Shown: one piece after another, positions 2,742-43,396 of the stretch
Position numbering within the stretch: position 1 is the first letter of the stretch
How the letters are laid out: every line of letters begins with the position of its first letter
Source: an uncultured Pseudomonadota bacterium
Lineage (GTDB): Bacteria > Pseudomonadota > Gammaproteobacteria > Burkholderiales > Rhodocyclaceae
Assembly (NCBI GenBank): GCA_903951825.1
Contig: CAJBDJ010000036.1
Span: 1-43,396 of the forward strand
DNA length: 43,396 nucleotides
Reading direction: 5' to 3'
Position numbers and translations under genes: made by a program
The notes under the pieces: model-generated
The model's input: only the letters and a program-made list of their open reading frames with translations
The model's database searches: none
Told to the model about the DNA's origin: nothing

Positions 2742-3641
2742 TCAGCGGCGACTGACGGTCAGAATTCCGACGACGACCAAGGCCGCACCGGCCATTTGCG
2801 CGAGTGAAATTTGCTCGTTGAGCAACCACCAGCCAAAGCCGATGGTCAGCAACGGGCCGATCATGGTGAAGAGTGAGGAGCGCCCGGCACCCAGGCGGCG
2901 GATCGCCGCCGACTGGGCGAAAACCGGCACGACCGTCGCAAAAACGGCCATCGCCAGACCCCATCCATAAACTGGCAAGGGTTGAATGAAAGCGCGCGGC
3001 GAGTGCGTGCTCAAAAAATGCAGCAAGGTCACTCCTGTCGACATCAAGCTCGTCAGTGCCGCGAAACGCATGGCGCCGATTCGGGCAATCATCGGTGCGC
3101 TGCCTGCCAGATAAATTGCATAGGAAACGCTCGATGCAAACACCAGACCGCCGCCAAGCCAGACGTTGCGTGCATCGCTCAAACCGAGGTCGTGGATGAA
3201 GGCAAAGCCGATACCGCTGTAGCACAGCACCACCGCCACTCCCTCGCGCCGCGCGAACGGTTTGCCTTGAAACAGGACGCCGATCAGGATCGTCAAAGTC
3301 GGGTAGGTAAACAGAATGAGTCGCTCAAGGCCGGCCGAGATGTATTCCAGCCCCCAGAAGTCGAGAATGCTCGCTCCGTAGTAGCCAAAGCAGCTGAGCA
3401 GGAACAGCCGCCCCCAGTCGCTGGAGGCCAGGCGGTTGCCGCTGCGCTGCTCACGCAAACCGACCCATAAAAAGAAGGGTAATGAAAAGCCCATGCGCAA
3501 GGCAAGGAGGGTGATTGCGTCAACCCCGTGAGGGTAAGCCAGCTTGACGAAAATGGCCTTGAGCGAAAAACCAAGGGCGGCGAGCAGTGCCAGCAGGGCT
3601 CCTGTCGCCGCACTCTCCTTCCAGTCATCTGGTTTGATCAA
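2742..3641 (-). CDS. EamA/DMT-family membrane transporter
   Basis: This is a 299-aa integral membrane protein of the drug/metabolite transporter superfamily. It has about ten hydrophobic segments arranged as two EamA repeats; the second ends in a glycine-rich helix (AGAALVVVGILTVSRR). Such proteins export metabolites or amino acids, but the substrate cannot be predicted here. The start is a TTG preceded by GGGAA; no in-frame ATG fits the N terminus better. It lies between the EIIA gene and the DUF3365 gene on the same strand, with no evident functional link. Confidence 0.85.
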   Translation of the reverse strand: MIKPDDWKESAATGALLALLAALGFSLKAIFVKLAYPHGVDAITLLALRMGFSLPFFLWVGLREQRSGNRLASSDWGRLFLLSCFGYYGASILDFWGLEYISAGLERLILFTYPTLTILIGVLFQGKPFARREGVAVVLCYSGIGFAFIHDLGLSDARNVWLGGGLVFASSVSYAIYLAGSAPMIARIGAMRFAALTSLMSTGVTLLHFLSTHSPRAFIQPLPVYGWGLAMAVFATVVPVFAQSAAIRRLGAGRSSLFTMIGPLLTIGFGWWLLNEQISLAQMAGAALVVVGILTVSRR

Positions 3642-3705
3642 GCTTGTTCCCGACGAAGGCGCGTGCCGATTATTGCCTATCGAGCCGCCGCCAAAAATAG
3701 CACCC

Positions 3706-4275
3706 TCAAAGCGAACGCTTGACGGTCAAGGCACCGCGTATTTGACCCTTGCTGTAGCCGGTCGCCTGATCGTGCGGATAACTTTCGGATAACTTGACCT
3801 TCAGCGCCGCATCAAGCCCCTCGCTCGGCCCGTGGCATTTCAGGCAGGTGTCGGCAACCGGCAAGGCTTTCATGTAACGAAAAACCGTTTGGCCGGCGAT
3901 GGTGACAATCTCGCTTTTTTCGATATTTTCGGGCTTCTCGCCGCTGGCGGCACGAATATTGAAATCGGCTAGTTGGCGCGCCTCCCACAAATCCGGCGTC
4001 GCGCGTTCACCGTTGCGCGTTTTCAGGCTGACGCGGCGAATCTCCCAGCCGGTTTCCTGGCGTTTTTGGTTGATCAACGCAGGCGCCTCTTCCTTGCAGA
4101 CCGCAATCGCCCCGGCCACCCCTTTTTCGGCAACGGCTTCCTGCATGGCAGTGACTACCTTGGGAATGACCGGCAGGACGGCTTTTTTGGTTTCGGCAGT
4201 CAGCGCAGAGATGTCCTGCGCCTGAACGGCTGTGGTGATGAGGGCGAGGGTCAGGGTGAGCAGCAGCTTTTTCAT
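3706..4275 (-). CDS. DUF3365 (Tll0287-like) periplasmic single-haem c-type protein
   Basis: The 189-aa protein starts at an ATG preceded by a GGAGG ribosome binding site, with a signal peptide MKKLLLTLTLALITTAVQA. One c-type haem motif, CLKCH, is at residues 144-148, followed by a C-terminal HDQATGYSKGQIRGALTVKR stretch typical of DUF3365/Tll0287-like haem sensors. It is expected to be a periplasmic haem protein in redox sensing or electron transfer; the precise role is unknown. An in-frame upstream extension exists but lacks signal-peptide character, so it was rejected. The gene is 46 nt downstream of the HerA-like gene. Confidence 0.85.
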   Translation of the reverse strand: MKKLLLTLTLALITTAVQAQDISALTAETKKAVLPVIPKVVTAMQEAVAEKGVAGAIAVCKEEAPALINQKRQETGWEIRRVSLKTRNGERATPDLWEARQLADFNIRAASGEKPENIEKSEIVTIAGQTVFRYMKALPVADTCLKCHGPSEGLDAALKVKLSESYPHDQATGYSKGQIRGALTVKRSL

Positions 4276-4321
4276 GATGCCTCCAGATGCGTATTGTTGA
4301 ATGCTTATATTACACGCCGAC

Positions 4322-5932
4322 TCAACGCCGCCCGCCAAGAATCGAGCCGAGCACGCCGCGCAAAAGTTGTTTGCCCACCTCGCGCCCGACGGTTCCGGCC
4401 ATGCCGCGCGTCGCACTCTTGGCGGCCGCTTCAAGAATGCCCTCGCGCCTGCCACCGCGCGGCCCGTTACTGCCGGTGAGTAATTCGCCGAGGCTTCCAA
4501 GCAAACCGCCGGCGCCTGATTCCGCTGCAGCGGGGGGGCTTGGCCGTGGCTGCCGTGCTGTGGTCGACGCCGGGTGGTTGCCCCAGTCGTTGTCATTCAG
4601 CACCCGGTCGCCGCCCGCCGGCGCGGGAATTGCAGCCACTGTCGGCGCCGCCGCGGGTGGCTTGCCGCGCAGGGATTCGTAGGCCGATTGGCGATCGACC
4701 GTCGTGCCGTAGGTGGCGAGCAGGGGCGAAGCTTGAATGATGGCGCGCCGCTCGTCGGCGCTCAACGGCCCCAGACGCGACGCCGGCGGGAAGATGATGC
4801 TGCGCTCAACGATCGCTGGGCGGCCTTTGTCATCGAGAAAAGAAACCAGCGCCTCGCCGACGCCGAGTTCGGTAATCGCCGCTGCTGCATCGAATTTCGG
4901 ATTGGCGCGGATGGTTTGCGCGGCCGCCTGGACGGCTTTTTGATCGCGCGGCGTGAAGGCCCGCAGCGCGTGCTGGACTCGATTGCCCAGTTGGCCGAGA
5001 ATTTTTTCCGGAATGTCGAGCGGGTTCTGTGTGACAAAAAAGACACCGACCCCTTTCGAGCGAATCAGCCGCACCACTTGTTCCACCTTGTCGGTGAGTG
5101 CTGGCGGCGCATCGGCAAACAACAGATGGGCTTCGTCGAAAAAGAAAACCAGCTTGGGCTTGTCGAGGTCGCCGGCTTCGGGGAGTTGCTCAAAGAGCTC
5201 GGAAAGCAGCCAGAGCAGGAAGGTCGAGTAAAGCGCCGGTGCCTGCACCAGCTTCTCGGCGTGCAGGATATTGATCACCCCGCGGCCGTTCTCATCGACT
5301 TTCATGAGGTCGCTGATCGCCAGCATCGGCTCGCCAAAAAACTGTGCGCCGCCCTGCTCGTCGAGCGTCAGCAGGCCGCGCTGGATGGCGCCAATCGATG
5401 CCGCCGAGACATTGCCGTATTCGGTGGTGAACGTTTTGGCGTTTTCGCCGACGTGCTGAACCATCGCCCGCAAATCCTTGAGATCGAGCAGCAACCAGCC
5501 CTGATCGTCGGCAATTCTGAAAACCAGCTGCAGGACGCCGGTTTGCGTGTCGTTCAGATTGAGCAGGCGAGCCAGCAGCAGCGGCCCCATGTCGGATACC
5601 GTGGCGCGCACCGGTATGCCGCCCTGCGCAAAAACATCCCAGAAGGCGACCGGGTTGGCGTAAGGCTGAAAGCCTTCCAGCCCGAGCTCCTTGATCCGCG
5701 CCAATAGCTTTGCCGATGGATTGCCGGCGGCAGCGGCGCCCGATAAATCACCTTTGACATCGGCCATGAACACCGGCACCCCGGCAAACGACAGACGTTC
5801 GGCCATCGATTGCAAGGTCACCGTTTTGCCGGTGCCGGTGGCGCCGGTAATCAGGCCGTGGCGATTGGCCATTTCCGGCAGCAAAGCCGGGTAGCCTTCG
5901 GCGGATTTGGCAAGGTAGAGGGGGTCGGACAT
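4322..5932 (-). CDS. HerA-like ATPase/helicase (DUF853 family)
   Basis: The 536-aa cytoplasmic P-loop ATPase has Walker A GATGTGKT at residues 30-37, Walker B around residue 260 ([13 protein letters not shown]), and a [29 protein letters not shown] segment characteristic of the HerA-like/DUF853 group. The C terminus is low-complexity and Pro/Ala/Gly-rich before a conserved glycine-rich tail. I chose the ATG at 5932 ([10 protein letters not shown]) because the family begins there and GAGGAA precedes it; the upstream in-frame extension is basic and non-conserved. The role is unproven; HerA proteins act in DNA translocation with NurA nucleases, but no nurA is nearby. Confidence 0.88.
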
Positions 5933-6036
5933 GGGCGCGGGTTCCTCGGAAAAGTGTCGCGGCATTTTAGCAATGCGCGCAGGATGCCTTGAGTTTCCTG
6001 CGGCAATTTGTCTGGCGGCGAATCCCCGCGATCCCC

Positions 6037-7569
6037 TTACCCGAGAAACAGCTGGTATCCCGGATTCCGGCTTTCGTCCCAATGCGCGTAACCGAGGTTT
6101 TTGAGAAAGGCCTTGAATTCGCTCATTTCCGCCGCCGGCACCTGCATACCGACCAGCACGCGGCCATAGTCAGCGCCGTGGTTGCGGTAGTGGAAGAGGC
6201 TGATATTCCAGCCGGCACTCATTTGCGTCAGGAAATTCATCAGCGCGCCCGGCCGCTCGGGAAACTCGAAACGGTAGAGCAGTTCGTGCATGCCTTTGTC
6301 GCAAACGGCCGGAGCATGGCCGCCGACGAGATGCCGAAGGTGGTTCTTGGTCATTTCGTCGTCGGTGAGATCGAGCGTCGGGTAGCCGTGTTTTTTCAGC
6401 TGCTCGACCAGCTTTTCCGATTCGTTGCGGTCAACAACCTGAACGCCGACAAAAACATGCGCTTCCTTGGCGGTGTTGTAGCGGTAATTGAATTCGGTGA
6501 CGTTGCGCTTGCCGATCAGGCCAAGAAATTTTTTGTAGGCGCCCGGTTTTTCGGGCAGCGTGACGGCGAGCACAGCTTCGCGCCGCTCGCCGACTTCGGC
6601 ACGCTCGGCAACGAAGCGCAGACGATCGAAATTCATGTTGGCGCCGGAGGAAATGGCGATCAGGTTTTTATCCTTGATCTTGTGCCGGCGGACGTATTCC
6701 TTGGCACCGGCGACGGCCAGTGCGCCGGCCGGTTCGAGAATCGAGCGGGTATCTTCAAAAACGTCCTTGATCGCCGCGCAGATGGCATCGGTATCGACGA
6801 GGATCATCTCGTCAACATACGCCTTGCATAGACGGAAGTTTTCTTCGCCCACCCACTTGACCGCCGCGCCGTCGGCAAACAGCCCTACCTGTTGCAGGCG
6901 AACCCGGTGCCCCTTGGCCAACGATTGCGTCATCGCATCTGCATCCTTGGCTTCGACCCCGATGATCTTGATTTCCGGACGCAAACGCTTGACATAAGCG
7001 GCAATGCCGGAAATCAGCCCGCCGCCGCCGACGCAGCAAAAGATGGCATGAATTGGACCGCTGTGGCGTGAGTGCTGGCGCAGGATTTCCATCGCAATGG
7101 TGCCTTGGCCGGCGATGACTTCCGGATCGTCGAAAGGATGAACGAAAGTCAGTTTTTCAGACTTTTCGAGTTCGAGCGCGTGCGCGTAAGCCTCGTCGTA
7201 GGAGTCGCCGAACAAGACCACTTCGCCGCCGCGCCGCTTGACGGCCTCCACTTTGATCCCCGGCGTCGAGGTCGGCATCACGATGACGGCTCGGCAACCC
7301 ACCTTGGCGGCGGACATCGCCACCCCCTGGGCATGATTGCCGGCCGACGCGCAAATTACGCCGCGTTTGAGCTTTTCTGCCGAGAGGCTGGCGATTTTGT
7401 TGTAAGCGCCGCGAATCTTGAAGGAGAACACCGGCTGCAGATCCTCGCGCTTGAGGATAATCTTGTTGCCAAGGCGTGCGGAAAGATTACCGGCGAGGTC
7501 GAGCGGCGTTTCGATCGCCACATCGTAGACCTGTGCATTGAGAACTTTTTCGAGATAATCCGGGTGCAT
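6037..7569 (-). CDS. ilvA: Threonine ammonia-lyase, biosynthetic
   Basis: IlvA deaminates L-threonine to 2-oxobutanoate with PLP, the first step of isoleucine synthesis. The PLP lysine is in [10 protein letters not shown] (Lys51), the phosphate-binding loop is [11 protein letters not shown], and the C-terminal third carries two ACT-like regulatory repeats (roughly residues 325-505), as in the long isoleucine-inhibited form. The start is taken as ATG at 7569 (MHPDYLEKV); an in-frame TTG three codons upstream is less likely. It is transcribed divergently from the YqaA-like gene, with only 38 nt between starts. Confidence 0.96.
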
Positions 7570-34076: not shown

Positions 34077-34116
34077 AAAAACAAAAACGGGTCAGGTGAA
34101 AATCACCTAACCCGTT
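34077..34116 (-). terminator. Rho-independent terminator downstream of the tRNA fragment
   Basis: Read on the minus strand, AACGGGTTAGGTG pairs with CACCTGACCCGTT around a 5-nt loop with one mismatch, followed by TTTTTGTTTTT. It begins 7 nt after the CCA end of the tRNA-like fragment on the same strand, the arrangement expected for a native tRNA gene terminator. Confidence 0.85.
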
Positions 34117-34123
34117 AAATATT

Positions 34124-34151
34124 TGGTGCGCCCGACTGAATTCGAATCAGT
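34124..34151 (-). pseudogene. tRNA-Arg-like 3' end fragment, probable attachment site
   Basis: On the minus strand the 28 nt read as T-stem ACTGA, T-loop TTCGAAT, T-stem TCAGT, acceptor strand CGGGCGC, discriminator A and CCA. Every length is canonical (5-7-5-7-1-3). The acceptor strand is the complement of GCGCCCG, the 5' end of bacterial tRNA-Arg genes such as E. coli argX. The usual G53-C61 pair is A-U here. No anticodon arm, D arm or GCGCCCG lies upstream, so this is not a functional tRNA. It fits the displaced 3' end left when an integrase-driven element inserts into a tRNA gene. Confidence 0.75.
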
Positions 34152-34216
34152 GGATCGCTTCTGTCGAGACTAGATTCAACTCCTCCTATGGACGGAAATA
34201 TCCAAGCAAAATCCTC

Positions 34217-34245
34217 TTGACAATCATGCCTATATAAACAATAAT
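34217..34245 (+). promoter_or_regulatory. Promoter of the ArsR-led biosynthetic operon
   Basis: A perfect -35 TTGACA (34217-34222) is followed 17 nt later by AATAAT (34240-34245), 5 of 6 bases matching the -10 consensus. Transcription would start near 34252, at the ATG of the ArsR gene, so its message may be leaderless. Confidence 0.7.
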
Positions 34246-34249
34246 ATAG
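34230..34249. promoter_or_regulatory. Candidate ArsR operator overlapping the -10
   Basis: CTATAT and ATATAG are perfect 6-bp inverted repeats with an 8-nt spacer that spans the -10 element. Dimeric ArsR-type regulators typically bind AT-rich palindromes over their own promoters, so this is the likely autoregulatory site (inference). Confidence 0.5.
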
Positions 34250-34251
34250 TT

Positions 34252-34563
34252 ATGATATCTAGTTACCTACACAAATTGCCTGATGAGTGGCTCGACGGCT
34301 CAGAGCTATTCGTTGCTCTTGGGGATGCTCACCGTCAGCGCATATTGCTTTCATTCGAAGCCGGGGAGCGTCTAAATGTTGGACAAATCGTTTCCAATAG
34401 TACGTTGAGTCGCACGGCGATTTCGCACCATCTTCAAGTTCTGAAACGGGCGGGCGTGCTTGAAAGCGAGAAAGTTGGGAAAGAAGTGTATTTCTGGATT
34501 AACAAACAGCACATCACTTCAATTTTGCAGCGTGTCCTAACCTACGTTGAGGATATGACCTGA
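34252..34563 (+). CDS. ArsR-type winged-helix transcriptional regulator
   Basis: The 103-aa regulator has the winged helix-turn-helix LSRTAISHHLQVLKRAGVLESEKVGKEVYFW. It contains no cysteine, so it lacks the thiol metal-binding motif (ELCVC) of metal-sensing ArsR/SmtB proteins and probably senses an organic ligand or another signal. No Shine-Dalgarno sequence precedes the ATG. Its stop overlaps the KASIII start (TGATG), placing it as the first gene of the eight-gene operon, which it probably represses. Confidence 0.88.
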   Translation: MISSYLHKLPDEWLDGSELFVALGDAHRQRILLSFEAGERLNVGQIVSNSTLSRTAISHHLQVLKRAGVLESEKVGKEVYFWINKQHITSILQRVLTYVEDMT

Positions 34564-35543
34564 TGCTTAGTCTTAGAGTATTAGCTACCGGAAAGGCAAA
34601 TCCTGCGATTGAAGTAAGTTCTGCGGAGTTGGACAAAAAACTCAATCGGGGGTCGGGTTTTACCCAAAAAAAATCAGGTGTCGTTATCCGACGTTTCTCC
34701 GCTCCAAATGAATCGCAAAGTGAATTGGCAGCGCGTGCATTGACAGATGCGGTAAGAAATGCGGGGATTCCATCAAGCTCAATCGATTTACTCATATCAG
34801 CCTGCGGGGTCCAAGAACAAGCTTTGCCGTCGACAGCCTGTGCGATCGGAGCTCATGCAAACTTATCGGAAGGGGTGCCCGCGTTCGATATCAACGCGAG
34901 TTGCCTAGGTTTTATGATGGCGCTCAAAGTCGCGGCATCATTACTCAGCACAGGAACTTATAGACGGATTGCGGTAGTGTCTGCTGACCAGCCTTCACGC
35001 GGTCTCGATTGGGATGAGCCGGAGGCTTCGTTGATTTTTGGCGATGGTGCTGCCGCTGTGGTTTTGGAAAAGGGTAATGATCAACAAGGAATACGATCAT
35101 TCCTTTTCAAAACCTATGTTGAAGGCAGGCAGTTCTGCGAAATACGTGCCGGGGGAACAAAGTGCAATCCCTCTAAAGGGGCTGTCGATAAAGACTACTT
35201 GTTCAGAATGAATGGCAAGCAGGTATTGAAACTAGTCTCGCTCAAAATGCCTGATTTTATGAATGAGTTAATGGATCAACGTGGCATTCTACTGGATAGC
35301 GTGGATTTGGTCGTGCCACATCAGGCCAGCCATCTGGGTATGGCGCATATGATCAAACGTATCGGCTTGGATCCCGGGCGAGTGGTCAATATTTATGAGA
35401 CTCACGGCAATCAGGTGGCCGCGTCCATTCCAACTGCGTTGCATGAGGCATTTGCAACAGGCAGGCTGCGTGCCGGCACCCGCGCGCTTATGCTGGGGAC
35501 GGCAGCCGGGGTCAGCATCGGCGGACTAGTCCTGGATATTTAA
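34563..35543 (+). CDS. KASIII-like ketoacyl synthase (FabH/OleA superfamily)
   Basis: This 326-aa thiolase-fold enzyme has Cys114 in DINASCLGFMMAL, His253 in VVPHQASHLGM and Asn283 in THGNQVAASIP, the full Cys-His-Asn triad of FabH-type condensing enzymes. Such enzymes condense an acyl-CoA with malonyl-ACP, join two acyl-CoAs head to head (OleA), or transfer acyl groups (CerJ type); the sequence does not decide between these. The setting in a cluster with an NRPS, away from fatty acid synthesis genes, points to secondary metabolism. It abuts the SDR gene with no gap. Confidence 0.9.
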   Translation: MLSLRVLATGKANPAIEVSSAELDKKLNRGSGFTQKKSGVVIRRFSAPNESQSELAARALTDAVRNAGIPSSSIDLLISACGVQEQALPSTACAIGAHANLSEGVPAFDINASCLGFMMALKVAASLLSTGTYRRIAVVSADQPSRGLDWDEPEASLIFGDGAAAVVLEKGNDQQGIRSFLFKTYVEGRQFCEIRAGGTKCNPSKGAVDKDYLFRMNGKQVLKLVSLKMPDFMNELMDQRGILLDSVDLVVPHQASHLGMAHMIKRIGLDPGRVVNIYETHGNQVAASIPTALHEAFATGRLRAGTRALMLGTAAGVSIGGLVLDI

Positions 35544-36545
35544 ATGCGAATTCTGGTAACTGGCGCAACAGGTGGACTGGGACGCAATGCTGTCGAATAT
35601 TTACACGCGCACGGCATTGAAATACAAGCCACGGGCCGAAAAGTTACCACTGGACAGTTTTTTTCAAATCTATGCATCCCCTTTACCGCAATCGATCTTG
35701 CTCATGCCACCGATGAGGAATTATCCAGACTGCTTGATGGGGTAGATGTCGTATGGCACTGCGCAGCGTTGTCGTCTCCCTGGGGGACACGCCAGCTTTT
35801 CGAAAACAGCAATGTTCTTGCAACACGAAATTTGCTTGAAGCCTCTGGCAAAGCGGGAGTAAGGCGTTTTATACACATCTCAACTCCAGCGATTTACTTC
35901 GATTTCACCCATCGCTACAACATTGTCGAATCATTTCGAGCCTCGACACCCGCGAATGAGTACGCTCGCACTAAGCTGTTGGGCGAGGCAGAAGTGGAAG
36001 CTATCAACACAAGATTTCCGAAATTGCGGACGTCGATCTTGCGCCCTAGAGCGATCTTTGGACCTTACGACCAAGTATTGATCCCTCGTTTGGCGCATAT
36101 GCTGTCTGTCAAGAATGGGCGCTTGCCGCTACCGCGCGGGGGGCAAGCCATCATCGACATGACATTCGTGGAAAACGTTGTGCACGCTATGTGGCTGGCA
36201 ACCACCAAAGATGATCTGCCCTCCGGATTGGCTTTCAATATCACGAACGACAAACCAGAGCGGATTGCGGTGGTGCTTGAAAAACTGTTTGTGGACAAGC
36301 TCGAGCAACGTATGAAAATCCTGAACATTCCCTATCCAGCGGTAGCGCTTGGCGCGAGGGTCATGGAATGCATTTCCGCGGTCACGAACAAGGAGCCACG
36401 GCTCACTCGATATAGTGCCGGAGTGTTGGCGTACGACATGACCTTGAATATCGCACATGCAAACAATGTGCTTGGGTACGTCCCGCCCGTGACACTGGAT
36501 GAAGGCATTCATCGCACTGCAGTCTGGCTGAGGACACATGGCTAG
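35544..36545 (+). CDS. Extended SDR, NAD(P)-dependent epimerase/dehydratase or 3-beta-HSD-like reductase
   Basis: This is a 333-aa Rossmann-fold protein with the nucleotide-binding motif GATGGLG (residues 7-13) and the catalytic YARTK (Tyr140-Lys144). It resembles the extended SDR group that includes 3-beta-hydroxysteroid dehydrogenases and OleD, which reduces the beta-keto acid made by OleA. Being directly downstream of a KASIII-like gene, reduction of a beta-keto acyl product is a natural hypothesis. Its end overlaps the MBL gene by 8 nt. Confidence 0.88.
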   Translation: MRILVTGATGGLGRNAVEYLHAHGIEIQATGRKVTTGQFFSNLCIPFTAIDLAHATDEELSRLLDGVDVVWHCAALSSPWGTRQLFENSNVLATRNLLEASGKAGVRRFIHISTPAIYFDFTHRYNIVESFRASTPANEYARTKLLGEAEVEAINTRFPKLRTSILRPRAIFGPYDQVLIPRLAHMLSVKNGRLPLPRGGQAIIDMTFVENVVHAMWLATTKDDLPSGLAFNITNDKPERIAVVLEKLFVDKLEQRMKILNIPYPAVALGARVMECISAVTNKEPRLTRYSAGVLAYDMTLNIAHANNVLGYVPPVTLDEGIHRTAVWLRTHG

Positions 36546-37350
36546 CATTACAGCTTTTGATGTCGGCTACTGCTCGCATCCGGGGTGTATGGCCCTAAAA
36601 GGGGCGGGCTTAAAGAACCGCTGCTTTCCCTCTCGCGCCTACCTGATCCAGACTTCGCGCGGCTTGCATCTATGGGATACCGGTTATTCCGAGCATTTTA
36701 TGGATGCCGCACATGGAATCTATCGTCTCTATCCGCTCGTAACCCCGATTCACCTGAATGCTCAAGCTCCCATCGTCCTGCAGCTCAAACGCATGGGGAT
36801 ACACGCCGCGGACTTGCGTAATATCGTTGTTTCGCATTTTCATGCCGACCACATTGCCGGCTTACTGGACTTCCCAGGGGTACGCATCGTCTGTGCTGCA
36901 GAAGGGTGGCAAAGCATTCAAGGCTTAAAAGGCCTGTCTGCACTGCGTCGAGCATTCCTACCTGGACTGGTTCCACTGGACATGCCGGAACGAACCACCT
37001 TCCTGCACGAACTACCACAGATGAAATTGCCACCCAACCTTATCCCATTCGAGAGCGCGAGGGATATCGATGGAAGCGGTGAGGTCTATCTGATCGAATT
37101 GCCTGGGCATGCGATCGGCCATCTCGGAGCATTTGTTCATACTGAAAGTGGATGGACTTTGCTCGCCTCGGATGCGGCCTGGGCTCCGGAAAACTATACC
37201 GAATTACGTGGGCCGTCGGAGCTTTCGTTTCTTGTTCAAGACAACCGCTCAAACTATTACGACACCTTAAGAAAAATGCAGCGCTTGCATCAAAATGGAA
37301 TCGAAATCTTGCTGACCCATCAGCAAGCATCCGAAAGCAACTCATGTTGA
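36538..37350 (+). CDS. MBL-fold metallo-hydrolase
   Basis: The 270-aa metallo-beta-lactamase-fold hydrolase has the zinc motif HFHADH (residues 100-105), a further His in LPGHAIGHLG, an Asp in LLASDAAW and a C-terminal His in LLTHQQ, matching the lactonase-like group that includes AHL lactonases. No signal peptide is visible, so it is probably cytoplasmic. In this cluster it could hydrolyse a lactone or release a thioester-bound product, since the NRPS has no thioesterase domain; this is inference. It overlaps the next gene by 7 nt. Confidence 0.88.
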   Translation: MASITAFDVGYCSHPGCMALKGAGLKNRCFPSRAYLIQTSRGLHLWDTGYSEHFMDAAHGIYRLYPLVTPIHLNAQAPIVLQLKRMGIHAADLRNIVVSHFHADHIAGLLDFPGVRIVCAAEGWQSIQGLKGLSALRRAFLPGLVPLDMPERTTFLHELPQMKLPPNLIPFESARDIDGSGEVYLIELPGHAIGHLGAFVHTESGWTLLASDAAWAPENYTELRGPSELSFLVQDNRSNYYDTLRKMQRLHQNGIEILLTHQQASESNSC

Positions 37351-38636
37351 GGCTGCTACGCGTCTTGCTGGCTTACTACCGGGCAAGGTGCTTGGTATTC
37401 GACTCGCGGGAAGCGCTCGAACGCCACCAGCAGGAAAAACTCGATGCTTTTCGCGCGACACTGATCGCACGCAGTCGCCACTACGCTCGCTATGCAGCCA
37501 TCCCGATAAGTATGTGGCCCGAATTGGATAAGGCTGGGATGCTGGCCAACTTCGACACGATGAATACGGCTGGACTGAAATTTCAGAAGGTCTTTGATAC
37601 AGCCTTGGCCTGCGAACATTCCAGGGATTTCAAACCCAAGCTGGGCAAGATCAATGTCGGCCTTTCTTCAGGCACATCGGGACAACGTGGCGTGTTTGCG
37701 ATTAGCGATCAGGAGGCCGCAAAATGGGCGGGAATCATGCTCGCAAAAATGCTCCCAGAAGGTCTATTCGCCGGCGAGAGGGTTGCCCTTTTTTTGCGCG
37801 CCAATAGCAATGTGTATGAGACTGTTCAGTCACGCTGGCTGACATTCCATTTCTTTGATTTGTTCGACTCATTTGAAAGCAATATCGCCGCACTAAAGCG
37901 CTACCAGGCGACCATCATCGTAGCGCCTGCGCAGGTTCTACGAGAGCTCGCGCTGAAAGTAATTGTCGGCGAAACGTTGATTCGTCCAAAAAAAGTCATT
38001 TCCGTGGCCGAGGTACTTGAGCCCCTGGACCGTCAATTGATCGAACAGGCATTTCACCAAGTACACGAGGTCTATCAGGCGACAGAAGGTTTCTTGGCCA
38101 GCACATGCGAACATGGGACTTTACATCTGAATGAGGAATATCTACATATCGAGCCATGTTGGCTGGATAACGAGCAACGACGTTTCATGCCAATCATCAC
38201 AGATTTTACAAGGCTCACTCAACCTTTCGTTCGCTACCGACTGAACGACGTTCTGATCGCAAGCCAGGCACCGTGCCCGTGTGGGCGCGTCACCCGCACG
38301 ATTGAGGCGATTGAAGGGCGCTGTGACGACGCTTTGGTACTGCCGGGAAAAGCGCGGGAAACCATCACCGTTTTTGCGGATGTCCTGTCACGCGTTTTCG
38401 TTAGACATCTTCCACGGGAAGCGGACTATCGATTAATCCAGACGGCGGAAACGACTCTGCGGCTACACGCCAGTGTGGACGAACCCAAACTCGCAACACT
38501 CAAAGAACATCTGGGAGTGACATTCGAGCAACTCGGGGTCGAGTCTAGGCTTATTGGATGGGAGTTGCATACGACCATCCCCACCCTGGATTCCGGAATC
38601 AAACGCAGGCGCATCGTCCGTAATTACCATGCGTGA
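37344..38636 (+). CDS. PaaK/F390-synthetase-like adenylate-forming enzyme
   Basis: The 430-aa stand-alone ligase has the ATP-binding motif LSSGTSGQRG (SSGTSG at 108-113), YQATEG (244-249), RYRLND (297-302), a CPCG pair (311-314), and a C-terminal basic SGIKRRRI segment that may provide the catalytic lysine. It belongs to the phenylacetate-CoA ligase/coenzyme F390 synthetase group and should activate a carboxylic acid as an acyl-AMP. I set the start at ATG 37344, overlapping the MBL stop; a longer frame upstream lies inside the MBL gene. The acceptor could be CoA, the NRPS carrier domain or an amine. Confidence 0.85.
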   Translation: MLRLLRVLLAYYRARCLVFDSREALERHQQEKLDAFRATLIARSRHYARYAAIPISMWPELDKAGMLANFDTMNTAGLKFQKVFDTALACEHSRDFKPKLGKINVGLSSGTSGQRGVFAISDQEAAKWAGIMLAKMLPEGLFAGERVALFLRANSNVYETVQSRWLTFHFFDLFDSFESNIAALKRYQATIIVAPAQVLRELALKVIVGETLIRPKKVISVAEVLEPLDRQLIEQAFHQVHEVYQATEGFLASTCEHGTLHLNEEYLHIEPCWLDNEQRRFMPIITDFTRLTQPFVRYRLNDVLIASQAPCPCGRVTRTIEAIEGRCDDALVLPGKARETITVFADVLSRVFVRHLPREADYRLIQTAETTLRLHASVDEPKLATLKEHLGVTFEQLGVESRLIGWELHTTIPTLDSGIKRRRIVRNYHA

Positions 38637-41600
38637 AACCTTGCTTAAGACACTGCCGAAATACCGAAAGATTTCCCCTTTTGAATGGATCTATTTATCC
38701 GCCACCTCGTCCTTTCCACCTTTTGCGATTCAACTCAAGATCGAGGTTATCACCCTCCCGCCACTGGAGGATATGGAGAACGCCCTTGCTGCTGCGGCAA
38801 GCGCCCATCCCGCCGCCAGGCTGACTGTAGCCGGCACTTGGTGGGCAGATAGTGGGAAAACGCCACCTATCCGCATCATTCCTGCCACGGAAACATTGTC
38901 CCTCGCCCATCCGTGTTTTCACCAGCCGTTTTCAATCACGGCATCGCCACCCATTGAAGTGCTTTATTGGCAGGGTGCCGGTTTGGTTTTTCGTTGCTCG
39001 CATGCCCTGATGGATGCCGGTGGATTGCTTTTTTTTGCACGAGAGACTTTTCGTGTACTTCGCGGAGAAGCTTTACTTGGTACGGCTGAAAATATCTCTG
39101 ACTACGAGTATCTAAAAAGTTGGAAGCATCCCACACACAGAACTGCGCTCTGGCCAGACAAACATTCGCCACTTGGGCCACCTGCTGCTGATAAAACCGG
39201 ATTTGTTTGGGAACATCGCTTTATCCCTGGGCAGGTGGCAGCGGTGGGAGCGCGGCTCGCGGGCGCACTGGGCGCCATGGCCGAGAAAGCACATCCAGGT
39301 GAAAGCAGCCGGATCATGCTACCCATCGATCTTCGTCATATAGATGCTTCGTTGCGTTCCACAGTTAATCTCAGCAACGCCCTATTTTTGCAAAAAGCGC
39401 TCACTGTCGGATGGACTGAATATTATCGGGATATCCTAGATGCACTGAGGCGAAACGAAGAGCGGGCCATTTCCGGGTGGGATGCCCTGTTTCCTAAAGT
39501 CCCGAGGTTTGTTCTACAAAGGCTCTTCCGTTGGCTACACGCGTTTCAGGTGCGGAACGATCGCTATCTGTTTTCCGCAACGATCTCTCATGTTTCGCCC
39601 ATTGCGTTGCGTGAATTTTCGGTGTCGGGCTGTGTACCGAAATCGGTGGCATTGCTCCCTTTTGATGCGCCAGGATCAGCGATTACTTTGATTACGACCC
39701 AGCACGATCACGGGTTGGAGATCGCGGCCTCCGCTCCGGCTGCTGCCGGTGAAGAGGGGCGTCTGGCAAAGTTACTCGACAATCTTTGTGCAGAACTAAG
39801 GCCGTGTGAATTGTCAATCCCCGCCTCAATTCTGGCGCAAATGGACGATAAAACACTCAAAGGTCCCCAAGGTATTTGTCCAGAGATAAGGCTCTACGAA
39901 CTATTTGCCCTGCAGGCCAAGGTTTACCCGGAGCGAATTGCCTTGAGCGAAGAGGGGCGCCAACTGGCGTACCGGAAGCTGGAACGCCTTGCTGCTTCGT
40001 GCGCCCATCGATTGCAGCAATACGGCGTCGCGCCAGGTGACAAGGTGGCGATTCTTGGGGGTCGCCACCTTGAGTCCGTTATCGCAGTACTCGGTATTCT
40101 GCATGTCGGTGCCAGCTTCGTTCCGATGGATCCAGACTGGCCTCGTGAGCGGATTCGGTTTGTTTTGAATGACTGCTCCCCAGTTTGTCTGCTCACGGAT
40201 GAAATGCATGCCGATCTTGCCGGCTTTTCCCAACACTTGCTTCTGTCTGAATTGCTGGAAGAGACTGCCGGCACAGATGATGTACGTTGCGAGTTCACTG
40301 CGAAAACCCCTGCCTATGTCCTCTACACCTCAGGCTCTACCGGCCATCCTAAAGGGGTCGTGGTTGGCCAGACCAGTATTGTTAACTATCTCTTGTGGGC
40401 CAAGGAAAGCTATTTGTCGGACATGGTTGATCGAGCGGTATTTCCCTTTTTTACTTCGCCTGCCTTCGATCTGACGCTGACCTCAATATTCCTGCCGCTC
40501 GTCAGCGGCGGTGAAATCCGTGTCTTTCCGCAGCGCGATGCGCTTCTCACGATTTCCGCCATCCTCGCCGATCCAGAAGTCAACGCAGTCAAGCTAACAC
40601 CCTCACACCTCCGGCTTTTTGAAGGACTGGGGATTGGGAAGAGCAATTTGCGGAGGTTCATTGTTGGCGGCGAAGCGCTGCCGACCCAACTGGCCAGAGT
40701 AATTTACCGTCAATCCGGGGAATGTGCAGAAATATTCAATGAATATGGCCCGACGGAAGCGACAGTGGGATGTGTGATGCATCGCTTCAACGCAGATCGC
40801 GATGTTGATGCCTTCGTGCCCATTGGGTATCCCATCGCGAATACCGAAGCCTTACTACTCGATGAAGATGCCATCCCTGTTGCTGACGGCGAAGCAGGTG
40901 AAATCTACCTTGCCGGTTCTTGCCTAGCGGAGGGATATCTGGCTCGCCCGGACGAGAGCGTCCGATTTACCACTCACCCTTTCCGTGCGGGGGCGCGCGC
41001 TTACCGTACTGGTGATCGTGCCCGACGCCTTCCAAATGGCGCGCTCGATTTTTTGGGCCGCACCGACCAGCAAGTGAAGATATTGGGGTACCGCATCGAA
41101 CCGGGAGAGATTGATGCAGCCATTGCGGCGAGTCATTTGTGCCGCGAATTTGCAGTGCTCCCAGAAAGGTCTGCCAATGGTATTCGGCTGACCGCTTTTG
41201 TGACTTTGATTTCCGGCGCGAGCGAGACCCTCTTGCGCCAAGTGCTCGTTGAATCATTGCCCGCCTATATGATTCCATCACGCATCGTCGCGCTCGACGA
41301 CATGCCGCTCAATACAAATGGGAAAATTGATAGAACGCGCCTACCAGTTGAAAGTCCGGTGCATCAGGAGGACAGCGAAGCCGCCCACGATGACATGCTC
41401 GATGCAATGCGCAATATCGTTAAGGATCTCACTGAAAACACTCGCACTAGGGTACCCCATGACCAATCTTTGCTCGATTTCGGTCTCGATTCTCTACAAA
41501 TGATGATGTTGCTGACGCTGTCCGCGAAACGCTTCCTGCCTGAAATGGAACATGACCTCCTGTTTTCTGGTCTGGAGGATTTCATTCGCAAACCAACATT

Positions 41601-41667
41601 GCAAACATTGGTTGCACACTTCCGAAAGCTGGTATGCGGTGACGCAAGGATTAGCCAAAGTGAATAA
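38629..41667 (+). CDS. Single-module NRPS (condensation/acyltransferase-A-T), predicted to load asparagine
   Basis: The 1012-aa protein has three parts. Residues 1-430 are a condensation-fold acyltransferase with HALMDAGG (His125-xxx-Asp129), in which the first His of HHxxxDG is Ser. Residues 440-920 are an adenylation domain with YTSGSTGHPKG near 565, NEYGPTE near 705, YRTGD and NGKIDR. Residues 925-1005 are a carrier domain with FGLDSL (phosphopantetheine Ser955). The ten specificity positions read D-L-T-K-I-G-E-V-G-K, an asparagine code. There is no thioesterase or reductase domain. The start ATG 38629 overlaps the ligase gene by 8 nt. It likely forms an N-acyl-asparaginyl thioester. Confidence 0.92.
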   Translation: MRETLLKTLPKYRKISPFEWIYLSATSSFPPFAIQLKIEVITLPPLEDMENALAAAASAHPAARLTVAGTWWADSGKTPPIRIIPATETLSLAHPCFHQPFSITASPPIEVLYWQGAGLVFRCSHALMDAGGLLFFARETFRVLRGEALLGTAENISDYEYLKSWKHPTHRTALWPDKHSPLGPPAADKTGFVWEHRFIPGQVAAVGARLAGALGAMAEKAHPGESSRIMLPIDLRHIDASLRSTVNLSNALFLQKALTVGWTEYYRDILDALRRNEERAISGWDALFPKVPRFVLQRLFRWLHAFQVRNDRYLFSATISHVSPIALREFSVSGCVPKSVALLPFDAPGSAITLITTQHDHGLEIAASAPAAAGEEGRLAKLLDNLCAELRPCELSIPASILAQMDDKTLKGPQGICPEIRLYELFALQAKVYPERIALSEEGRQLAYRKLERLAASCAHRLQQYGVAPGDKVAILGGRHLESVIAVLGILHVGASFVPMDPDWPRERIRFVLNDCSPVCLLTDEMHADLAGFSQHLLLSELLEETAGTDDVRCEFTAKTPAYVLYTSGSTGHPKGVVVGQTSIVNYLLWAKESYLSDMVDRAVFPFFTSPAFDLTLTSIFLPLVSGGEIRVFPQRDALLTISAILADPEVNAVKLTPSHLRLFEGLGIGKSNLRRFIVGGEALPTQLARVIYRQSGECAEIFNEYGPTEATVGCVMHRFNADRDVDAFVPIGYPIANTEALLLDEDAIPVADGEAGEIYLAGSCLAEGYLARPDESVRFTTHPFRAGARAYRTGDRARRLPNGALDFLGRTDQQVKILGYRIEPGEIDAAIAASHLCREFAVLPERSANGIRLTAFVTLISGASETLLRQVLVESLPAYMIPSRIVALDDMPLNTNGKIDRTRLPVESPVHQEDSEAAHDDMLDAMRNIVKDLTENTRTRVPHDQSLLDFGLDSLQMMMLLTLSAKRFLPEMEHDLLFSGLEDFIRKPTLQTLVAHFRKLVCGDARISQSE

Positions 41668-42499
41668 TTCGCGTGACTGGCAGAGCTTGGCCTACCTTCT
41701 TGGCTTGCCAGCTTTAGTAGCGTGGTCGTGGATGCAGGCATCCTTCGATGTGAAGGCATATGTCGGCATTCTGGTGCTCGTCATCGGTGTCTGCTGTATC
41801 AGTCACAATCATGCGCATGTTCCGATCTGGCGAGCATCATGGCTCAACCGGCTAACGGACATGTGGATCGGAATCCTTCAAGGACAGCCAGTCTTTCTGT
41901 TCCAGCCGGCCCACGTTGCCAGCCATCATCGTTTTAATCAGGGAGCGGAGGATTTGACCCGAGTTGCGCGATATTCAGCTGAGAACACTCTCATCGGTTA
42001 TCTCGTTTTCCCTTTTCAAGTGCTGCCCGCGCTGCAGGAACTCAGGAAAAAGCATCTTGCCAGTTTGTGGCGCGAGAAACGCGATGAGTTCTGGTGGGTG
42101 GTCGCATTGCATGTTCCGCTTCTAACGCTCTGGATAACTGTATTTTGGCTCGACCCTATCAAGGCCACCATATACGTTCTGATCCCGCAGCTCGTGGGCC
42201 TGCATTTTCTTCTCGCCTCGAACTACCTCCAACACGCTCATGCCGTTGCCGGCTCACGCTACAACCACTCTCGGAACTTCGTCGGATTGATCAACGTCAT
42301 CTGGTTCAATGTCGGCTACCACACAGCACATCATGAAAACGAAAAACTGCACTGGACCTTGCTCCCAGAGGCGCATCGGGACATTGCAAGCAGAATTAAT
42401 CCTGCTTTGGTTGAGTTCAGTTTACTCGTTTATACATTCCGTACGCTATTGCTGGGATTGATTTTGCCGCATCTGCGCTCCATACAACTAAAGGACTGA
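41660..42499 (+). CDS. Membrane fatty acid desaturase/hydroxylase
   Basis: This 279-aa di-iron membrane enzyme has the three histidine boxes HNHAH (49-53), HVASHH (85-90) and HTAHH (221-225), between hydrophobic segments. The family introduces double bonds (or hydroxyl groups) into acyl chains. The GTG at 41660 overlaps the NRPS stop by 8 nt and has AGGA 9 nt upstream; a longer frame inside the NRPS gene was rejected. Acyl substrates could be free lipids, carrier-bound acyl chains or the NRPS product. Confidence 0.88.
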   Translation: MNNSRDWQSLAYLLGLPALVAWSWMQASFDVKAYVGILVLVIGVCCISHNHAHVPIWRASWLNRLTDMWIGILQGQPVFLFQPAHVASHHRFNQGAEDLTRVARYSAENTLIGYLVFPFQVLPALQELRKKHLASLWREKRDEFWWVVALHVPLLTLWITVFWLDPIKATIYVLIPQLVGLHFLLASNYLQHAHAVAGSRYNHSRNFVGLINVIWFNVGYHTAHHENEKLHWTLLPEAHRDIASRINPALVEFSLLVYTFRTLLLGLILPHLRSIQLKD

Positions 42500-43155
42500 T
42501 GGAAACACCGATGACGACTCACGCCGATTCCTTAATGGATATCTGGAAGACCTATTCTCGCTGGGTTTTTTATATCAGCTTGGCTTTTTTCCCCACGTAC
42601 CCGCTATGCAACTGGATTACCGCGCAACGGACGGATACTTTGGGTCTCTACTGCAATGCCGAGTTAAAGATTCCTTTTGTCCCAGAGTTCATTTGGGTCT
42701 ACTTTTCCATGTACCTCTTATTTCTTGCACCACCTCTTTTTCTGAATGTCATTCAACTTCAGGCCTTAGGAAAGCGACTTCTGATTGGGACGCTATTGTC
42801 GAGCCTCGCATTTCTAGTGATTCCTTCTCATCTTGGATTCGGCCGAGTAATCCCAGAGGACCCCCTTTACCAGTCAATCTTTTCTGGACTCTTTGTTGTA
42901 GATCAGCCTCACAACATGGTTCCATCCCTGCACATTGTATTTAGCTCCTTGATACTTTTCGCGTTCTTGAATGCTTCGGCGAAGCAGTTGTCAAAATTCA
43001 TTTGGTTGCTTTGGCTGATTTCTATCATGGCTTCCACCTTGTTCGTGCATCAGCATCACCTCACTGACATCGTAAGCGGCCTAGTGGTGGCTATTGGGAT
43101 ACATCTTGGAATTAAAACTGAATTGCCCAAATTTTCCTCGGCGAGCGCTCTTTAA
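42499..43155 (+). CDS. PAP2-superfamily membrane phosphatase/transferase
   Basis: This 218-aa protein with about six membrane helices has PSLH (142-145) and the SxxxxxxHxxxD motif (Ser179, His186, Asp190) of type-2 phosphatidic acid phosphatases, but not the KxxxxxxRP motif. That pattern is closer to the Aur1/inositol-phosphotransferase-like branch (PAP2_3) than to simple phosphatases. It may dephosphorylate a lipid or transfer a phosphorylated headgroup. The start overlaps the desaturase stop (TGATG); a second ATG at 42511 is possible. It is the last gene of the operon. Confidence 0.85.
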   Translation: METPMTTHADSLMDIWKTYSRWVFYISLAFFPTYPLCNWITAQRTDTLGLYCNAELKIPFVPEFIWVYFSMYLLFLAPPLFLNVIQLQALGKRLLIGTLLSSLAFLVIPSHLGFGRVIPEDPLYQSIFSGLFVVDQPHNMVPSLHIVFSSLILFAFLNASAKQLSKFIWLLWLISIMASTLFVHQHHLTDIVSGLVVAIGIHLGIKTELPKFSSASAL

Positions 43156-43396
43156 CAAGCCGTTGAAAAACCCCGTAAATTTCATGCATATGGTATAATT
43201 TACCTCATTTTGCCAAGTCCGCCACCACTCAAAACACAAGGGCTAAAACTGGGCTCCCGGGTTCGACAGTTCGCATCTTAAAATCCCCATTTTTCACCCC
43301 AGTCCCCCAGTGTTTGCGCGGGTTTCAGGGCGATTTTTTGAAAATAAATGTAATGGCACGAATTTAATTTTCAAGATGATTAGTAGCATTATTTGA
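43156..43396 (+). other. Non-coding end of window, possible insertion-sequence edge
   Basis: No gene is visible. GCCGTTGAAAAACCCCGT (43160-43177) resembles the terminal sequences of some insertion sequences (IS1182-like, from memory), and an extended -10 TGGTATAAT follows at 43191-43199 without a matching -35. The transposase, if any, would lie beyond the window. The sequence CCCGGGTTCGACAGTTC near 43258 looks tRNA-like but does not pair. Confidence 0.35.

Follow-up and report, generated by a model that had tools for sequence, protein, structure and literature searches.

An eight-gene operon joining a widespread four-gene core to an asparagine-type NRPS, and its possible asparagine-bearing lipid product

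An eight-gene unit at 34252-43155

We analysed a 43,396-nt stretch of DNA from an uncultured Rhodocyclaceae bacterium (contig CAJBDJ010000036.1, assembly GCA_903951825.1; hereafter the window), in which eight open reading frames (ORFs), all on the + strand, occupy positions 34252-43155:

34252..34563, +, ArsR/SmtB-type regulator without cysteine (PF01022)
34563..35543, +, KASIII-type condensing enzyme, Cys-His-Asn present (PF08541, PF08545)
35544..36545, +, extended short-chain dehydrogenase/reductase (SDR; PF01370, PF01073), nearest NCBIfam model OleD
36538..37350, +, metallo-beta-lactamase (MBL)-fold hydrolase, like acyl-homoserine lactone (AHL) lactonases, metal ligands present (PF00753)
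37344..38636, +, F390 synthetase-related (PaaK-like) adenylate-forming enzyme (F390; TIGR02304)
38629..41667, +, nonribosomal peptide synthetase (NRPS) with a condensation-like (C) domain (38629-39900), a predicted Asn-type adenylation (A) domain and a peptidyl carrier protein (PCP; PF00550, 41404-41565)
41660..42499, +, membrane fatty-acid desaturase/hydroxylase family protein (FADS), GTG start (PF00487)
42499..43155, +, PAP2-fold membrane protein, modelled fold nearest sphingomyelin/inositol phosphorylceramide (IPC) synthases (PF01569)

Junctions were recomputed with the starts ATG 37344 (F390), ATG 38629 (NRPS) and GTG 41660 (FADS), longer in-frame starts existing for all three. ArsR and KASIII then overlap by 1 nt, KASIII and SDR abut, and the subsequent pairs overlap by 8 (SDR/MBL), 7 (MBL/F390), 8 (F390/NRPS), 8 (NRPS/FADS) and 1 nt (FADS/PAP2), so that overlaps of 1-8 nt are found at six of the seven junctions and direct abutment at the other. 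An earlier note on this DNA had described the eight genes as one unit joined by such overlaps or abutment, and the genes are indeed real and their coupling is tight. Their order is not due to chance, since Noviherbaspirillum humi U15 (locus L080, NZ_FZOT01000003.1) has the seven enzyme genes in identical order.

A widespread four-gene core and its tails

In the core alignment (77 rows), the Cys-His-Asn set of KASIII and the Ser/Tyr/Lys set of the SDR are invariant, while the MBL metal ligands and the F390 motifs are conserved with few exceptions. The structures nearest to KASIII are 4v2p and CorB, and it falls below the cut-off of model NF005541. The SDR scores 157 bits against OleD, under the cut-off of 580, as do the SDRs of the lipstatin-like operons L197 and L198 (209 and 232 bits). 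AHL lactonases are the nearest models and structures for the MBL protein. F390 has no Pfam match and reaches 504.5 bits against TIGR02304 (curated cut-off 251.9), and PaaK-like ligases are its nearest structures.

The SDR's proximity to OleD, that of the MBL protein to AHL lactonases and the presence of a LuxI-like ORF beside one core operon (L073) would fit an Ole-like hydrocarbon or signal pathway, in which the core makes, by analogy with OleABCD, an alkene or lactone that the tail genes adapt for signalling. The Ole olefin pathway resembles the window operon in condensation, OleD-like reduction, adenylation and a hydrolase. However, the operon encodes no OleB- or OleC-type protein and adds an NRPS and membrane proteins, and alkene formation offers no role for an NRPS that loads Asn, which makes this explanation improbable. 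At L073, the LuxI-like ORF, presumably ExpI, is joined by a pectinesterase-like ORF, both situated upstream of the core at ~3245-6184.

The KASIII-SDR-MBL-F390 set is a widespread core, common in Proteobacteria. Of 199 genomes in a sample of the family, 3 have a TIGR02304 match above cut-off, and F390 itself is matched (E up to 1e-40) in 8 of 398 sampled from the phylum. Scanning genome_contigs with a 10-sequence F390 alignment yielded at least 590 pattern matches, at least 569 of them confirmed, from which 80 loci were kept. All four core genes are found in 76 of these, the remainder being three loci without a KASIII match (L098, L106, L112) and one short contig (L111). Core operons of Escherichia coli, Janthinobacterium and Pectobacterium share this gene order, and, as in the window, PAP2 and FADS-type genes follow. 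In E. coli NRG 857C (L199, NC_017634.1 ~1305029-1311910, NRG857_RS06425 to RS06455), the complete core relative is accompanied by PAP2, a sterol desaturase and an acyl-CoA desaturase, and is flanked by narI and the tyrT tRNA genes. A 7-kb seven-gene query of this kind is at least 80% present in 671 of 5426 complete E. coli genomes. Literature searches turned up no study of the four-gene core.

The window operon is a member of this TIGR02304 core family with an unusual tail. PAP2, a fatty-acid hydroxylase and one or two FADS form the usual tail, present in 57 of the 80 core loci. Tail scoring took in 87 loci (the 80 kept and 7 others); two short contigs (L111, L153) fell outside its coordinate filter, though tblastn shows PAP2 there, and L074/L151 and L032/L107 are apparent duplicate records. 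Unlike the usual PAP2, fatty-acid hydroxylase and FADSb, the window's tail reads NRPS-FADS-PAP2: with respect to the usual operon it has an Asn-type NRPS, another FADS, a divergent PAP2 and ArsR, and no fatty-acid hydroxylase. An NRPS tail is rare among core loci, 78 of the 80 having no match to the NRPS condensation domain.

The closest counterpart is L080, whose identity to the window is 70% for KASIII, 57% for SDR, 65% for MBL, 64% for F390, 50% and 52% for the NRPS C and A domains, 58% for FADS and 60% for PAP2. The earlier note held that its proposal would fall if homologous clusters always lacked one or more of these genes; L080 carries all seven enzyme genes, although no ArsR match was found in its locus and, as said, most core loci are without the condensation domain. 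A third locus, L081 (Pelomonas sp. BJYL3), combines the core with FADS and a separate condensation-domain protein, that is, a C domain without A-PCP. A tree built from the four core proteins (77 rows) places the window with L080 and L081 in one clade (support 1.0). Since this clade adjoins Janthinobacterium, Massilia, Chromobacterium and Aquitalea operons with the usual tail, the NRPS-type tail probably replaced the usual one once.

The earlier note had listed the last protein as a lipid-phosphate enzyme. Its PAP2 family membership stands and PF14378 was matched in 30 of 30 PAP2 members. The structural model is at least as similar to sphingomyelin/IPC-synthase-like head-group transferases as to phosphatases, whose folds are not far behind. 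H145, H186 and D190, its His-His-Asp set, are invariant in 30 rows but not decisive for a transferase, because PAP2 phosphatases share them. The sole match of FADS in the PDB was at chance level. In one alternative, the product is a membrane lipid, the last step being phospho-head-group transfer by the sphingomyelin/IPC-synthase-like protein and the NRPS a lineage-specific side addition. The predicted fold, the PF14378 matches and the prevalence of the usual tail, which recalls sphingolipid tailoring, would fit it, and so would the sole hydroxylase scanned (L074), whose nearest model is that of the ornithine-lipid hydroxylase OlsE, at 67.6 bits against a cut-off of 475. However, the window lacks a hydroxylase, its PAP2 is only ~17-24% identical to those of other core loci, except L080 at 58%, and phosphatase folds come close; we regard this alternative as unlikely.

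Several core loci vary in other ways. An ATP-grasp gene of one kind, which replaces or adjoins the NRPS role, lies near the core in L032, L033, L076, L077, L078 and L138; the one in L032 precedes a GNAT-like gene and PAP2. At ~7143 of L106 and L112, a FADS-type match takes the place of KASIII upstream of SDR-MBL-F390. The MBL match of L133 is split in two pieces (9184 and 9525), so the gene may be broken or the assembly faulty. A "coenzyme F390 synthetase" mutant appears in a transposon list of the kiwifruit-canker Pseudomonas (row IYO_RS29540, PMC9823363) and may belong to this family.

The NRPS, lipstatin-like operons and the possible product

The claim of two adenylating enzymes was borne out. 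F390 exceeds its TIGR02304 cut-off and the A domain matches TIGR01733 at 361.5 bits (curated cut-off 317.4). As for the C-A-T architecture proposed alongside, A and PCP are above cut-offs (PCP against PF00550, 24.7 bits, curated cut-off 20.8), whereas the C domain has no match to PF00668 or any other Pfam family, and the window genome has no PF00668 protein and one PF01648 match. By hhalign, the C domain aligns with canonical ones at probability 62 (E 7.6e-5, 337 columns), compared with 0.0-0.1 when columns were shuffled (five shuffles) and 0.4 when the F390 alignment was used instead; the 11 canonical domains had been chosen by the HHxxxDG motif in NRPS loci, Pfam playing no part in the choice. 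This homology indicates a distant relative of condensation domains, and its motif SHALMDA keeps the catalytic His and Asp. A sequence search of the PDB gave one match, at chance level, and the predicted structure has a pLDDT of 36.5.

The A-domain code, with positions set by eye from motifs and read off the alignment, reads DLTKIGEVGK for the window and DLTKVGEVGK for both L080 and L072. We found the former in print in one paper and the latter in none; in PMC12283262, DLTKIGEVGK is handled under Asp/Asn and also said to be compatible with beta-cyano-alanine. As judged by this code, the domain is Asn-type, in agreement with the earlier note.

Used as a single query against genome_contigs, the NRPS gave 20 pattern matches, none confirmed, a scan that missed real relatives, since L080 and L081 were found through F390. 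Among 399 genomes sampled from the order, the condensation domain was matched only in the window's own. The whole NRPS was matched in 21 of 60 genomes sampled from the genus; among the matches listed, all but the window's own start at residue 373 or later, with the condensation domain unmatched. The C domain further matches 23 plasmid records, 21 from Streptomyces and 2 from Rhodococcus, of which ten were listed and the regions of nine, all but H35, examined. Seven of the nine contain, in this order, a ketoacyl synthase (KAS), a second KAS-like or unnamed protein, FadD, an OleD-like SDR, an NRPS and a formyltransferase, with a small extra gene interposed in four of them, and the other two differ. 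The records give enzyme classes only, and we take this order to be the lipstatin (lst) layout. FadD and SDR of two such operons are nearest the olefin beta-lactone synthetase and OleD models, below cut-offs. Alignments of the window NRPS with three NRPSs of these actinobacterial regions span nearly the full length, and the C-domain tree gives its group (13 sequences versus 11 canonical) support 1.0. The view that the gene mix matches no nameable pathway therefore does not hold, four genes forming a widespread core and the C-domain group recurring in lipstatin-like order.

Two further NRPSs belong to the same C-domain group. That of L072 (7325-11594), a genome we take to be Legionella-like from its gene content, is a same-kind C-A-T protein with an Asn-type code, adjoins an ATP-grasp gene and is weakly placed within the group (support 0.37); no KASIII-core match was found in its 20-kb region. 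That of Streptomyces atratus (L200, NZ_CP109382.1) carries the Asn-type code DLTKVGEIGK, follows a TauD-type dioxygenase and lies outside the lipstatin-like gene order.

In Rhodococcus sp. H-CA8f (NZ_CP023721.1) and Streptomyces sp. NBC_01343 (NZ_CP108363.1), the lipstatin-like operons share the unusual C-domain NRPS with the window, again adjoining a KAS, an adenylate-forming enzyme and an OleD-like SDR. Unlike the window, they hold two KAS-like genes, an OleC-like FadD and a formyltransferase, and no MBL, F390, FADS or PAP2 in the annotated stretch; their A-domain codes are DMALIGSIVK and DIFALGGVVK, respectively. In lipstatin the amino acid is ester-linked, and esterastin is a lipstatin-type beta-lactone with an N-acetyl-asparagine ester; a long-chain lipid bearing asparagine would follow the same principle.

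These likenesses bring us to a tentative proposal, held with somewhat less than even confidence, that the horizontally acquired operon makes an Asn-bearing long-chain lipid by lipstatin/esterastin-like logic, with Asn ester-linked. Starting from what is seen in the sequence (gene content and order, core active-site residues, the Asn-type code, the C-domain group, the fold likeness of the last protein and the foreign composition described below), we infer every chemical step, the linkage and the product. Most likely, the operon would build a long hydroxy-type chain, activate it, join Asn to it and tailor the product in the membrane. KASIII would join acyl chains, the OleD-like SDR would reduce the 3-oxo product to a 3-hydroxy acid, and the PaaK-like F390-related enzyme would adenylate this acid in the place held by an OleC-type enzyme in the Ole and lipstatin pathways, while the MBL hydrolase may open or release a lactone or thioester. 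The NRPS would load Asn on its own PCP, and the condensation domain would move it to a lipid hydroxyl, giving an ester as in lipstatin and esterastin. FADS may hydroxylate or desaturate a chain, the PAP2-fold protein may add or trim a phospho-head-group, and the cysteine-free ArsR would control the operon.

Parts of the lipstatin-like gene set are missing: no OleC-type beta-lactone synthetase was found in the operon, PF00501 being matched only in the NRPS among the eight proteins, and neither a second KAS, beside the one KASIII, nor a formyltransferase was found among the eight genes. Given these absences, the operon is not a member of the lipstatin family; judging by sequence, it appears to work like lipstatin-like operons without belonging to them.

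The linkage is where the proposal meets its closest competitor, an N-acyl-asparagine amino-lipid, in which a starter C domain would transfer the acyl chain made by the core to the amino group of Asn held on the PCP, forming the amide that the earlier note had proposed, release would be by MBL or water, and FADS and PAP2 would tailor the product. The C-A-T order fits a starter condensation domain, and the Asn-type code, the kept catalytic His and Asp and the absence of a formyltransferase also agree with an amide. Yet the nearest relatives of the C domain are mostly NRPSs of lipstatin-like operons, whose expected linkage is an ester, and Pelomonas keeps the C domain without A-PCP, leaving the amide rather unlikely. 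The lipstatin parallel, if valid, would instead imply an ester between Asn and a hydroxyl.

A bolder form of the ester proposal, which we consider doubtful, is a Gram-negative lipstatin/esterastin counterpart in which the PaaK-like enzyme and MBL replace OleC and OleB, with an Asn-specific NRPS and a sphingomyelin-synthase-like head-group step. Were it true, the same core would make an unexplored lipid class across Proteobacteria, including the core-bearing E. coli genomes counted above. Lipstatin-type beta-lactones inhibit serine hydrolases, so a Gram-negative source would be useful. The window variant would serve as a chemical handle, since an Asn-type NRPS with lipstatin-like relatives suggests a long hydroxy- or lactone-type chain as the core product, and asparagine is a label by which that product could be found. 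Thailandene was rejected as a known match: a review names orgA-M and a polyketide synthase for it and gave no match.

Genomic setting and upstream elements

Four elements lie directly upstream of the operon:

34086..34152, -, element with the 3' end of tRNA-Arg (34124-34152), 29 nt identical to G000:C52:212-240, possible integration-site remnant
34116-34086, -, terminator-like hairpin after the tRNA-Arg fragment (from sequence)
34217-34245, +, promoter-like TTGACA-17-AATAAT (sequence motif)
34230-34249, +, inverted repeat CTATAT-N8-ATATAG overlapping the promoter-like site, possible ArsR operator

The intact tRNA-Arg(ccg) is on another contig of the same genome (G000:C52, 212-288), in which the operon stretch occurs once. 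The operon genes have a G+C content at third codon positions (GC3) of 0.48-0.59, whereas five other genes of the window have 0.66-0.75. Between the operon and the contig end lie 241 bases, in sequence with further copies in the genome: 43256-43396 recurs at three sites (99-100% identity) and 43156-43205 at four (88-98%). A simple genomic-island model was not confirmed, as no empty site was found in three same-genus genomes; in these genomes, ARAGORN found no tRNA-Arg in ~9.5 kb around the homologous transporter gene, and a tmRNA in one region. The repeats at the contig end, the tRNA-Arg 3' fragment just upstream and the GC3 difference nonetheless speak for acquisition, and the eight-gene unit was probably acquired horizontally.

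Promoter-like sites in the region are not above chance (6 found versus 8.2 +/- 3.2 in shuffles). The ArsR protein has zero cysteines, which makes a thiol-bound metal unlikely.

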